Positions 12,286-61,557 of a stretch of DNA of 64,000 nucleotides are shown here, piece by piece. The translations under genes were made by a program, and so were the position numbers. The stretch comes from Actinoplanes lutulentus (GTDB lineage: Bacteria; Actinomycetota; Actinomycetes; Mycobacteriales; Micromonosporaceae). Where the stretch lies: the NCBI RefSeq assembly GCF_003259845.1, contig NZ_QLMJ01000007.1, positions 1-64,000 of the forward strand, in the 5' to 3' direction. Position 1 is the stretch's first letter, and each line of letters begins with the position of its first letter. Below the pieces are notes generated by a model that saw only the letters and a program-made list of their open reading frames with translations, searched no databases and had not been told where the DNA came from.

Positions 12286-12387
12286 ATGGGCCGAGTGCTT
12301 TTGTGGCGTGGTCTCGGCGTACTTCTGACCCTGCTTTTGATCTTGCTGCTTTTGCTCTTTCTGCTTGCGTCTTGCTTATTGCGGTGA
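12286..12387 (+). CDS. Possible 33-residue hydrophobic membrane peptide
   Basis: A short ORF with ATG 9 nt after GGAG encodes a peptide with a basic N-terminus (MGRVLLWRG), a run of about 22 almost purely Leu/Ile/Val/Phe residues (LGVLLTLLLILLLLLFLLAS) and the ending CLLR. It looks like a single-span membrane peptide. Size and shape resemble type I toxin peptides or small membrane regulators, but nothing in the sequence identifies it. Local base composition is richer in T than its neighbours because of the TTG/CTT leucine codons. It could be fortuitous. Confidence 0.4.
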   Translation: MGRVLLWRGLGVLLTLLLILLLLLFLLASCLLR

Positions 12388-12494
12388 GTTACACGGCCTC
12401 ATGTTGTCCCCAGGTCGTGCTCGTCCCTTATTTCTGGGGGGCGTTGTCCACAGGGGTGGCGGCGATCTCCGGCGATTTCGGCGACGCTGTCGCG

Positions 12495-13361
12495 ATGGCC
12501 GCCCCACCCACGTCAGTCCCGTTCCGCGGCTCCGCCGTGATCTCCGCAGGCCTCATCACCCGAGCCCGGCTGCGTGGCGATGACTGGCGGCGCCTGTTGC
12601 CGGACGTGTACGTCCATCGTGACGTGCCGATCGATCATCGGATCTGGTGCATCGCGGCGGGCCTGCTGCTGCCGACCGGCGCGGCTATCGGGGGCCTCAG
12701 CGCGGCCTACCTCTGGGGCGCCGACCTGATCCGGCCCGATGCGCTCGTCTCCGTGGTGACACCCCGCGACCGGCGGATCAGGGGTCACAGCCGGATGGTT
12801 CCGCACTACACGCTCCTCGGCGAAGCCGACGTGACAACTCTCGGTCCGCCGGTCACCACGCCGGAGCGAACGGCGTTCGACCTGGCCCGCCGCCTCCGGC
12901 GTACCGAGGCTCTCGTCGCGGTCGATGCTCTGGCCGGCACGGGCCGCCTGGACCTGCCGGCGGTATCCCAGCTGGTCCGCGAACGCCGTCATTGGCCGAG
13001 AACGGCACAGGCCAAGGAGGTGATCCGCCTCGCCGACTCCCGCGCCGGTTCCCCGATGGAGACGCGGCTGCGACTGCTCATCCACGACGCCGGTCTGCCC
13101 GCGCCGGAGCCTCAATACGAGGTACGCGACGAGCACGGTCACCTGATCGGCCGGGTGGACCTGGGCTGGCCGGCGAAAAGGGTGGCCGCCGAATACGAGG
13201 GCGACCACCACCGCAACCGTGACCAGTTCCGCCACGACCTGGCCCGCGCCAACGAGTTGCGGATGGCCGGATGGATCGTGCTCCGCTTCACGGCGAACGA
13301 CGTCCTCCGCAACCCGCAAAAGACAGCCGCCATGATCGCCGTCGAGCTGGCCCGCCATTGA
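12495..13361 (+). CDS. DUF559-type nuclease-fold protein with AbiEi-like N-terminus
   Basis: About 288 residues. The N-terminal part (ITRARLRGDDWRRLLPDVYVHRDVP) resembles the AbiEi-type antitoxin/winged-helix module common in actinobacterial DUF559 proteins. The C-terminal part carries a Vsr-like PD-(D/E)XK arrangement: SPMETRLRLLI, then RVDLGWP, then AAEYEGDHHR, followed by RDQFRHDLARANEL. DNA endonuclease activity is possible but unproven. ATG 12495 is taken as the start because the conserved part begins 15 residues later; the frame is open further upstream and TTG 12444 is an alternative. It is not obviously linked to the iron genes around it. Confidence 0.75.
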   Translation: MAAPPTSVPFRGSAVISAGLITRARLRGDDWRRLLPDVYVHRDVPIDHRIWCIAAGLLLPTGAAIGGLSAAYLWGADLIRPDALVSVVTPRDRRIRGHSRMVPHYTLLGEADVTTLGPPVTTPERTAFDLARRLRRTEALVAVDALAGTGRLDLPAVSQLVRERRHWPRTAQAKEVIRLADSRAGSPMETRLRLLIHDAGLPAPEPQYEVRDEHGHLIGRVDLGWPAKRVAAEYEGDHHRNRDQFRHDLARANELRMAGWIVLRFTANDVLRNPQKTAAMIAVELARH

Positions 13362-13408
13362 TCACGACCCCAGCCGCCCCGGCCGCGGGCGGTGCGCAGC
13401 CGGCGGGG

Positions 13409-13461
13409 CCCAGTCGCGGGGGCCCAGTCGCGGGGCCCAGTCGCGGGGCCCAGTCGCGGGC
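13409..13461. repeat. Four tandem copies of a 13-bp G+C-rich unit
   Basis: The unit CCCAGTCGCGGGG occurs at 13409, 13423, 13436 and 13449; an extra G separates the first two and the last copy ends in C. It lies in the gap between the DUF559 gene and the longer repeat array. No function is apparent. Confidence 0.85.
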
Positions 13462-13487
13462 GGGCTGTTGACCGGCCGAGCTGTCGC

Positions 13488-13799
13488 CCACGGCTGTTGG
13501 CTGCACGTGGCGGCGACCGTGGTGTTCAACCCGTTGCCGGCTGTCATCCAGGGCTGCCAGCCGTACGCCACGGCGACCCTGACGTTAAGCCAGCGTGAGT
13601 CGGCTGCACACCAGGGCTGCCAGCTGCACGTCACGGCGACCGCGGTGTACAGCCCGGCGCCAGCTGTCGCCCAGGGCTGCCAGCTGCACGCCACGGCGAC
13701 CCTGACGTTAAGCCAGCGGGAACGGGCTGCACACCAGAGCTGCCAGCTGCACGTCACGGCGACCGTAGCGTTCAGCTGGTTGCCGGAGGCGGCTGTCGG
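13488..13799. repeat. Alternating 60/63-bp imperfect tandem repeat array
   Basis: Five units start at 13488, 13548, 13611, 13671 and 13734. Each opens with a variant of CCAGGGCTGCCAGCTGCACG and continues into CACGGCGACC. Two tail types alternate: A (60-66 bp, with GTGTTCAACC-like sequence) and B (63 bp, CTGACGTTAAGCCAGCG), giving a 123-bp higher-order period. All unit lengths are multiples of three and both strands are open through the array: the plus frame from 13468 would encode repeats of GCQLHxTAT and the minus frame repeats of CSWQPW. No start signal supports either frame, so I annotate the DNA repeat and not a gene. Confidence 0.85.
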
Positions 13800-13913: not shown

Positions 13914-15584
13914 ATGAAACGAAGTCTGCTTCTTCGCGCGATCAAGCGCCACCGTGGCCGTCTGGCCGGCGGGGTGGCGTTGCTCTGTCTGCATCAGGCG
14001 ACCGAGGCGCTGGTGCCGGTGGTGATCGGGCTGGTCATCGACCGGGCCGTGGCCACTTCGGACACCGGGGCGCTCGTTGTCACGCTGGCCGGGCTGGCGG
14101 TGTTGTTCACCGTGCTGGCGATGGCCTGGCGGTTCGGGTCGCGGCTGAGTTATGGGGCGGCTGAGCGGGAGGCGCACCTGCTCCGGGTGGAGATCGCCGA
14201 GCGGGCGCTGGACCCGCGGGGGCGCAGGACCGGGCTGCGGGACGGTGAGCTGCTCAGTGTGGCGGCCGGGGACACCGAGCACGCGGTGGACGCGATCCGG
14301 GCGGTCGGGCTGTCCGCGGCGGCCTGCACGGCGTTGCTCGTGTCCGCCGTCGCGCTTGTCGTCGTCGATCCGCCTCTCGGGATCGGGGTGCTGGTAGTCG
14401 TACCCCTGGCGCTTCTTGCGTTGCAGTGGCTCGCGCCGCTGCTGACCCGCCGCAGTGACGCCCAGCAGGCGGCTCTTGCGGAGACGACCGCGACAGCGGT
14501 CGATCTGGTGACCGGCCTGCGGGTGCTGCGCGGAATCGGTGCGCAGCACCATGCCGCCGAACGGTATGCGGCCGCCAGCAAGCACACGCTGGTGCAGACG
14601 CTGCGGACGGCGAACACGAAAGGCCTGCACCTGGGCCTGACCACCGCGGTGAACGGCCTGCTGCTCGCGGCGATCACCGGTGTCGCCGGCTGGCTGGCGC
14701 TACGTGGCGACATCACGATCGGTGAGCTGGTCGCGGTGGTGGGTCTGGCGCAGTTCATCGCCGAGCCGGTGCAGACGCTCGGCTGGTGCGTGCAGCTGTT
14801 CGCGACCGCGCGCGCTTCCGCCGGGCGGGTGTCGAAGGTTCTCGACGCGCCGCCGGCCATCACGCCGGGTGAAGGACGCGTTCCGGCGCCGGCTTCCGAC
14901 CGGCTCCTTCTCCAGAACATTTCGTACGGTGGACTCGAGCGGTTCGGCCTGCGCGTGAAAGCCGGTGAGGTGCTCGGGGTGCTCGCCTACGACCCGCGGG
15001 ACGCCGAGTCGCTGCTCGCCCTGCTCGCCGGCAACGTGGCGCGCGACGACTACCAGGGAACGGTACGCATCGACGGCGTGCCCGCGGAGACCCTGGACAT
15101 CGCCGAGGCCCGAAGCGTGGTGCTGGTGGAGCACCACCACGTCACGCTGTTCGAAGGATCGCTGCGGGAGAACCTGGGAGACCGCCCCGACGAGGAGCTG
15201 CTGGCGGCGGTCCATGCGGCCGCGGCGGAGGACGTATTGACGGCAGGGCTCGACCACGAGCTCGTCGAACGCGGCGCCAACCTCTCCGGCGGCCAGCGGC
15301 AGCGGGTCGCGCTCGCGCGGGCGTTCGCCGCCGATCCCCCGGTGCTGGTCCTGCACGACCCGACGACCGCCGTGGACGCGGTCACCGAGGCGCTGATCGC
15401 GGACCGGCTGGCCGAGGCGCGTGGCCGGTCGCCGCGGGGCACCATCGTGATCACCAGCAGTCCGGCGCTGCTGCGGGCCGCGCACCGGGTCACCGTGCTG
15501 GACGGCGGCACGGTGGTCGCCGAGGGAACCCATGACGAGCTTGTGGCGGCGCAGCCGCGTTACCGGGAGATGGTGCTCCGATGA
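13914..15584 (+). CDS. ABC exporter half-transporter, degenerate ATP site (iron-regulated)
   Basis: The 556-residue protein has an exporter-type membrane domain (about 1-310) fused to a nucleotide-binding domain. The NBD is degenerate where it would bind ATP: the Walker A position reads VLAYDPRDAESLL without GK[ST], the catalytic Glu after Walker B is Pro483 (VLVLHDP), the Q-loop position is Glu406 and the H-loop His is replaced (VITSSPAL). The signature LSGGQRQR (457-464) is intact. It can only work as half of a heterodimer with the next gene (ATGA overlap). By context (iron box, SIP neighbours) a siderophore or heme transporter is likely, as for IrtAB/YbtPQ; this is inferred. Confidence 0.87.
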   Translation: MKRSLLLRAIKRHRGRLAGGVALLCLHQATEALVPVVIGLVIDRAVATSDTGALVVTLAGLAVLFTVLAMAWRFGSRLSYGAAEREAHLLRVEIAERALDPRGRRTGLRDGELLSVAAGDTEHAVDAIRAVGLSAAACTALLVSAVALVVVDPPLGIGVLVVVPLALLALQWLAPLLTRRSDAQQAALAETTATAVDLVTGLRVLRGIGAQHHAAERYAAASKHTLVQTLRTANTKGLHLGLTTAVNGLLLAAITGVAGWLALRGDITIGELVAVVGLAQFIAEPVQTLGWCVQLFATARASAGRVSKVLDAPPAITPGEGRVPAPASDRLLLQNISYGGLERFGLRVKAGEVLGVLAYDPRDAESLLALLAGNVARDDYQGTVRIDGVPAETLDIAEARSVVLVEHHHVTLFEGSLRENLGDRPDEELLAAVHAAAAEDVLTAGLDHELVERGANLSGGQRQRVALARAFAADPPVLVLHDPTTAVDAVTEALIADRLAEARGRSPRGTIVITSSPALLRAAHRVTVLDGGTVVAEGTHDELVAAQPRYREMVLR

Positions 15585-61501: not shown

Positions 61502-61534
61502 ATGTGGCTACACCCACTGCGGGTGTAGCCACAT
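61502..61534. terminator. Perfect 14-bp terminator hairpin
   Basis: ATGTGGCTACACCC (61502-61515) pairs with GGGTGTAGCCACAT (61521-61534) around a 5-nt loop. A partial third copy of the arm (GTGGGTGTAGCAC) follows at 61539-61551. It serves the operon ending at 61478 and the convergent gene ending at 61558. Confidence 0.9.
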
Positions 61535-61557
61535 CCGTAGTGGGTGTAGCACAGAAA

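Follow-up and report, generated by a model that had tools for sequence, protein, structure and literature searches.

Between two open reading frames of the actinobacterium Actinoplanes lutulentus lies a tandem repeat whose units recur at alternating distances of 60 and 63 bp and which is open on both strands, and the question is what kind of element it is. A first-pass annotation, made from the letters of the sequence, offered three answers: a dispersed repeat family, a rapidly evolving coding repeat or a structured RNA. The window referred to below is the whole stretch of DNA that was analysed, 64,000 nt long (positions 1 to 64,000 of contig NZ_QLMJ01000007.1); its genome is G000 in our numbering of genus genomes, within which C marks contigs and L loci.

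The five-unit tandem repeat is real. In the unit definition that holds genome-wide, the array consists of five gapless 53-bp units at 13479–13777 on the + strand; the limits first proposed, 13488–13799, start 9 bp inside unit 1 and end 22 bp beyond unit 5. The units occupy 13479–13531, 13539–13591, 13602–13654, 13662–13714 and 13725–13777, scoring 56.1, 61.9, 69.1, 64.5 and 62.6 bits, respectively, with the covariance model R1 introduced below, and the spacers at 13532–13538, 13592–13601, 13655–13661 and 13715–13724 are 7, 10, 7 and 10 bp long. Because the spacers alternate in this way, the array reads as a 60/63-bp alternation with a 123-bp period, and TRF likewise resolves 13500–13776 into 2.2 copies of 123 bp (88% matches) or 4.5 copies of 63 bp (72%). 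The A-B-A-B-A order seen at first reading holds in unit sequence as well as in spacer length: unit 2 is 91% identical to unit 4 and unit 3 is 89% identical to unit 5, as expected with duplication of a two-unit block. Unit 1, with its layout of 13-7-13-7-13, is the most diverged (68–77% identity to the other four), and for unit 3 end-to-end folding is predicted on either strand (−24.8 and −32.1 kcal/mol).

Directly before the array, as had been noticed, is a 13-bp tandem repeat, GCGGGGCCCAGTC (13403–13460, no strand assigned; TRF 4.4 copies, 95%), which adjoins the array and, as far as seen, stands outside the hairpin family. Upstream of both is an ORF at 12303–13361 on the + strand (352 aa from its first start), which may be DUF559-like; downstream, also on the + strand, is an ABC-type exporter ORF at 13914–15584 (556 aa), whose ATG lies 136 bases beyond unit 5. 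A simple codon-usage gene caller trained on the window, for which gene starts are approximate, begins these two genes at 12456 and 13974.

The guess of a dispersed family is supported. BLAST of the array against its own genome gave 43 matches, and the unit follows the formula X-GGCTGCC-Y-GGCGACC-Z′ (36 regions), in which the letters X, Y and Z denote words of 13 bp, most of them starting with GGCTG, and Z′ is inverted. The unit has the form of an imperfect hairpin: its arms, inverted relative to each other, flank a 13-bp middle, and its ends read GGCTG...CAGCC. The covariance model R1, built from 72 units (alignment A1; a regular expression had yielded 81, of which nine were dropped by hand), found 142 matches when applied to the own genome with an E-value limit of 1. 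Our census comprises the 108 rows at or above 43.7 bits and leaves out the 34 weaker ones, many of which are the opposite strand of a listed unit; because 150 of 33,668 first-look candidates were scored, its counts are lower bounds. By this census there are at least 108 units in at least 59 arrays of one to five units. The length is exactly 53 bp in 104 of the 108, and spacings within arrays are 63 bp in 23 of 49 cases and 60 bp in 13. Identity is 0.82 between units of the same array (75 pairs) and 0.70 between arrays (5,281 pairs), a signal of local amplification. Among the 72 units of subfamily F1, to which the window array belongs, columns 1–4 (GGCT) and 50–52 (AGC) show conservation of 90% or more. 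Linkage between columns of the F1 words is strongest for positions 6 and 9, in X, Y and Z alike, which would fit recombination of word classes (nCRC, nACR) as blocks.

A second family of 53-bp units with a 63-bp period, F3 (GGCTTGYGCTTRYGGTCG...CGACCRYAAGCRCAAGCC), often stands beside F1 arrays (locus L009, 2365–2480; L281, 13378–13619). At the ends of contigs C15 and C16 of the same genome (L004 and L008), the contigs end in identical sequence shortly past an array, so these two arrays adjoin a duplicated stretch, which probably broke the assembly.

With the family in hand, the coding interpretation can be judged. The window array is indeed open on both strands, in one frame on each, but this says little about coding: the same openness arises in 826 of 1,000 shuffled 123-bp units placed in tandem and in 193 of 1,000 shuffles of the full 312 bp. 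Because openness is so frequent in shuffles it is no evidence of coding, and open frames in arrays of such repeats are to be expected by chance. Similarly, lengths that are multiples of 3 are a property of the window array and of 38 of the 49 spacings in the family, but not of the other 11. Since these 11 spacings break the frame, only one of the 59 arrays falls in a called gene and openness is at the level expected from shuffles, we reject a coding role for the repeat, rapidly evolving or otherwise.

When the repeat lies inside a protein linker, it can be read through. The in-gene array, L014 (C18:21890–22167 of the own genome; 2326–2603 of the locus), has four units at spacings of 81, 81 and 63 bp, in frame. 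It translates to about 92 linker residues, comprising four repeats (AEQGGRRDVQPAALSDS), of an ABC protein that fuses two halves and has ABC_membrane and ABC_tran domains; on our reading the protein is CydDC-like. DNA matches to the fused gene occur in 67 of 67 genus genomes, and the linker is different in all ten relatives inspected (of 66). The linker of G014 contains a 63-bp repeat of the hairpin layout. If G014 had a family of its own, this repeat would be expected to be dispersed there, and the prediction held: it has 71 matches in G014 and none in G000, G076 or G007. The linkers of G063, G076 and G079 (L252, L248 and L250) carry other tandem repeats, of 36, 48 and 54 bp.

Beyond the own genome, the family is restricted in range. 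The exact layout pattern had no matches in a search of one genome per species over 84,980 species, from which the own genome or a very near one was possibly left out, and none in viral contigs, and the array sequence matched nothing among plasmids or phages; on these results, a plasmid, phage or viral origin is rejected. Among the other 66 genus genomes, R1 at E up to 0.01 with stricter filters had matches in eight: eight matches in G076 and one in each of seven others, the best at 39.4 bits. The word GGCTGTCRCYCASGGCTG occurs 77 times in G076, 20 times in G000, twice in G078, once in G007 and never in the 63 other genus genomes, and its backward control is absent from all 67. By count, the match in G007 is a 53-bp unit in its own right, and one of the G078 matches lies, by eye, within a dehydrogenase-like gene.

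A looser pattern, scanned in 200 genomes of the taxonomic family (36 of the genus and 164 of other genera), revealed expansions in six of the 36 genus genomes: 651 matches in G014, 331 in G010, 109 in G076, 78 in G081, 61 in G000 and 30 in G072, with at most 4 for the backward control in these six. By this pattern no expansion was seen in the remaining 30 of the genus or in the 164 from other genera, each of which had nine or fewer matches, at control level. Searching the own genome and its relatives for the unit, as the first-pass annotation had proposed, thus turned up at least 59 arrays at home and, in relatives, families that differ in interior sequence. These families are not wholly private to a species: one word type is common to G000 and G076, and much of the inner stem is common to G014 and G010.

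In the five sampled genomes of the genus, the same length and stem pairing return while the interior sequence differs from species to species. For length, we counted GGCT-to-AGCC distances from 24 to 109 bp in contiguous intergenic samples of these genomes (G+C of the G000 sample, 69%), with an anchor taken from known units and samples that are non-random, being contigs or stretches already known to hold hits (for G063, near the fused ABC gene). Pairs at 53 bp, compared with the mean of other lengths, number 8 against 1.4 in G000, 11 against 1.9 in G076, 30 against 1.3 in G010 and 12 against 0.7 in contig C73 of G014, making 53 bp the commonest intergenic spacing in four of the five genomes. 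The fifth, G063, has two units (2 against 0.24, level with four other lengths), and a further stretch of G014, from C26, has 2 against 0.5 with its top at 58 bp (4). A second peak in G010, 16 pairs at 49 bp, consists mostly of the same units counted to an earlier, or from a later, repeat of the end motif. Coding DNA has little or no excess at 53 bp (for example, 10 versus 7.7 in G000). After filtering for arm pairing, 90, 33, 36, 23 and 2 units remain at 53 bp in G000, G014, G076, G010 and G063, respectively, and no other length exceeds 15 (54 bp, G076). The G014 units read 13-7-13-7-13, as in G000, and TRF periods of 61–64 bp cover units in 7 of 9 G014 loci. Periods of 63 bp recur in both G014 and G076, and the relatives also have periods of 74, 79, 82, 85 and 107 bp.

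For stem pairing, we pooled units in an alignment, A2, of 95 of 97 selected units (two from G076 were dropped by hand), with at most 24 per genome, from G014, G076, G010, G063 and, with 24 units of the F3 type only, G000. These units have GGCT and AGCC ends because they were selected by those ends, and they passed a filter that required 6 of the 11 arm pairs in columns 5–15. An 18-pair stem is formed in 87.4% of cells, compared with 75.4% in shuffles and 32–42% in slid alignments, and 219 cells are changed on both sides, compared with 98 in shuffles; none of 500 shuffles reaches either value. In columns 16–22, which lie outside the filter, 77.7% of cells are paired versus 61.2%, and 118 are changed on both sides versus 75; the number of pairs with two-sided change there (5 versus 6.0) and of pair types (20 versus 20.0) is not above shuffles. 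RNAalifold draws A2 as stems 1–6/48–53 and 12–17/37–42 with a 5 × 5 internal loop. Within single families, where a few outliers weigh on some positions, pairing exceeds shuffles at certain positions only (10, 11 and 13 among the unfiltered units of G010, for instance). Because the families are partly alike (G000 with G076, G014 with G010), inherited changes are counted many times in the pooled covariation, and templated correction inside quasi-palindromes could be a source of complementary changes without selection; the signal could therefore come in part from shared family descent and in part from such correction.

The suggestion of a structured RNA (or DNA) is supported for the element class, through the compensatory changes in units pooled from five species, but is weak for F1, the subfamily in the window. 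F1 is a poor hairpin, with a left half like the G076 type (CACGGCTG) and a right half like F3 (GGCGACC). Its outer X:Z′ pairing, at 78.7% versus 76.4% in shuffles, is slightly in excess and is not above pairing with neighbouring units (4.71 versus 4.51 matches, p = 0.87), a comparison against which the X:Z′ word correlation (z = 5.5) also fails as proof of selection on the F1 stem. The inner Y:Z′ pairing is below shuffles (69.1% versus 71.7%), and a conserved inner hairpin is rejected on that basis. Predicted folding energies of F1 have medians of −26.4 and −27.3 kcal/mol, with z of −2.0 and −2.5 (first 30 of 104 units); the other families, sampled as their first 30 units (23 for G010) and, unlike F1, passed through the arm-pairing filter beforehand, have median z of −4.0 to −5.9.

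By predicted folding, the transcribed strand would carry a stable hairpin, as in an intrinsic terminator; the T-run of such a terminator is absent directly after the units, where spacers 1–4 read CGTTGCC, AGCGTGAGTC, CGGCGCC and AGCGGGAACG. Rfam has no matches in the window and, at five other loci, five matches, all far below threshold, of which two (mir-4672, 29.1 of 98 bits) fall exactly on G076 units.

The arrays are found preferentially where genes end. In the own genome, with the in-gene array counted as tandem, 25 of 54 classed arrays lie in convergent gaps, compared with 4 of the 40 other gaps of at least 150 bp at the same loci (Fisher p = 2 × 10⁻⁴), and 5 of 54 lie in divergent gaps, compared with 14 of 40 (p = 0.004). 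An array edge is within 60 bp of the facing stop codon in 23 of 76 cases and of the facing start codon in none of 35. Across the five-genome samples, counting gaps of 60 bp or more, filtered units occur in 14 of 107 where genes converge, in 9 of 373 between tandem genes and in 2 of 219 where genes diverge (convergent versus divergent, p = 6 × 10⁻⁶; convergent versus tandem, p = 5 × 10⁻⁵), and 8 of 65 filtered units lie inside called genes. In the G000 sample by itself this bias is absent, with units in 1 of 17 convergent gaps, none of 80 tandem ones and 2 of 50 divergent ones. Unit strand has no fixed relation to gene strand, at 15 same against 8 opposite in tandem gaps and 8 against 17 in convergent gaps. 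A preference for convergent gaps is reported for bacterial stem-loops in general in excerpts of PMC1590033, so the bias points to a 3′-end niche and not, by itself, to a function. The same preference is expected of neutral insertions.

Several known kinds of repeat share features with the element. Rickettsia palindromic elements (RPE) are palindromic repeats able to sit in frame inside protein genes, as the L014 units do; unlike them, nearly all arrays here are outside called genes. The MIRU repeats of mycobacteria are, like the present element, tandem, intergenic, tens of bp long, actinobacterial and in some cases open in frame, and they are not known to have a palindromic 53-bp layout. REP-like repeats are well known in Proteobacteria, their spread there being explained by a dedicated transposase.

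It is of the REP repeats that the element looks like an undescribed relative in kind, as it is palindromic, present in many copies and mainly intergenic. REPINs, in excerpts of PMC8049555, consist of two inverted arms that form an imperfect palindrome with a diverse spacer, and the element resembles them in its inverted arms, diverse middle, many intergenic copies, tandem clusters, preference for 3′ ends and occasional presence in genes. We do not file it as REP, because the RAYT domain Y1_Tnp (PF01797) has no matches in the own genome (it was found in 5 of 14 control genomes) and because the GTAG or CGTC tags of the REP families described in excerpts of PMC3733652 are missing, with no such column at either end of the 72 F1 units. 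The lack of a Y1_Tnp match in the own genome is also the ground on which mobilisation by a RAYT is rejected. The element differs from REP further in its GGCT/AGCC ends, its recurrent 53-bp length and its actinobacterial host, which is outside the groups listed in the PMC3733652 excerpts for GTAG repeats (Proteobacteria, Cyanobacteria, Chloroflexi and PVC) and for CGTC repeats (Proteobacteria, Chlorobi, Bacteroidetes, Spirochaetes and Thermotogae). A large-genome actinobacterium is also what the G+C of 69% would suggest, together with the best of the matches listed for an ABC-F protein, which are 74–75% identical to Actinacidiphila and Embleya. The repeated stem-loops of Petrillo et al. (2006) are similarly sited, clustering at the 3′ ends of genes and between convergent genes; in excerpts of PMC1590033 their new families come from Yersinia, Bordetella and Enterococcus and have no fixed length across species, unlike the 53 bp of the element. 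Excerpts of the literature on actinobacterial intergenic or palindromic repeats, stem-loops and REP, BIME or RAYT contain no description of this family that we could find.

Dispersal, restriction, recurrent length, covariation of the pooled stem and genomic context are all observed, and the explanation that we prefer, with a probability of about one half, is a REPIN-like hairpin element, dispersed and non-autonomous, of which the array forms one local cluster and which is tolerated or used at gene 3′ ends. A copying function that depends on ends, length and shape would carry the unit, folded into a single-stranded hairpin, to new sites. Unequal exchange or slippage would subsequently lengthen and shorten the arrays, a process proposed to make neighbouring units more alike, and copies would survive mainly past stop codons. 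There the hairpin, which can form on both strands, may serve as a two-way 3′-end signal, as a transcription end or a barrier to RNA decay, or may simply be harmless. A rather doubtful extension is that a RAYT-free mobility system of the genus copies hairpins by their ends, shape and 53-bp length and not by their interior, with lineages carrying co-diversifying populations of their own.

The units could also be functionless palindromes with no dedicated spreading machinery, generated by template switching and slippage and piling up where selection is weakest, in long convergent gaps and variable linkers. This is possible, if not what we expect: the units are enriched where insertions should hurt least, arrays are locally amplified, and the fused-ABC linker varies in all ten relatives inspected, several of which hold other short tandem repeats, yet a recurrent 53 bp and compensatory stem changes are hard to obtain without a reader of ends, length or shape, and spread to dozens of sites needs a copying step. 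An unlikely explanation is a role in chromosome architecture, of the kind proposed for BIMEs: units of 53 bp repeating every 63 bp (about five and six helical turns) would be binding sites for a topoisomerase or nucleoid protein and would relieve positive supercoiling where genes converge. It would suit the imperfect dyad and strongly kept ends, the favoured convergent gaps of the pooled samples, the 36 of 49 spacings that are 63 or 60 bp and the 63-bp periods of G014 and G076; against it, 60 bp does not make an integral number of turns, single-unit arrays are numerous, relatives also have periods of 74 to 107 bp, and 30 of 36 genus genomes have no expansion by the pattern used. Highly improbable is a translated or regulatory feature specific to the downstream ABC operon. 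The array does stand just upstream of a + strand ABC gene, but 58 other arrays of the family stand beside other genes, openness is at chance expectation, and the DNA matches to the exporter ORF in G015, G007 and G021 (77–79% identity) cover the ABC side of the query only, the upstream ORF matching elsewhere or nowhere, and none of these relatives displays an empty counterpart of the array site. Dispersal largely refutes an operon-specific reading.

The genus holds several families that agree in length and in the plan of the stem, and a RAYT-type transposase had no match in the genome examined, which makes it a test of whether recognition of ends, shape and length can sustain repeats. The six expanded and thirty non-expanded genomes among 36 are natural replicates for finding the machinery.

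Other palindromic repeats were encountered alongside these families. In the own genome, a second dispersed palindrome family, GAGCCGTAGCTCAGATAGGTCATCG...TGACCTATCTGAGCTACGGCTC, about 54 bp long, has 12-mers in up to 19 of 56 loci, with sites at L005 1119–1239 (63-bp period), L006 about 1160–1300 and C1:211748 and 276512; another palindromic repeat, GTGTCGATTTCGGGTTCGATACGCGCC...TTCGACAC, has 12-mers in up to 10 of 56 loci, with sites at L006 about 1020–1070 and about 1410–1460 and at C1:258075. Contig C107 of G076 contains a distinct family of long palindromes of 73–85 bp, GATGTTGATCTGCTAGCG...CGCTAGCAGATCAACATC, at ten sites in 400 kb (for example, 19546, 37365, 173407 and 194338). Finally, at 61502–61550 of the window, between convergent genes, are overlapping palindromes, GCTACACCCACTGCGGGTGTAGCCACATCCGTAGTGGGTGTAGC, with a similar one at C1:231667 of the own genome; these are perhaps another dispersed family.
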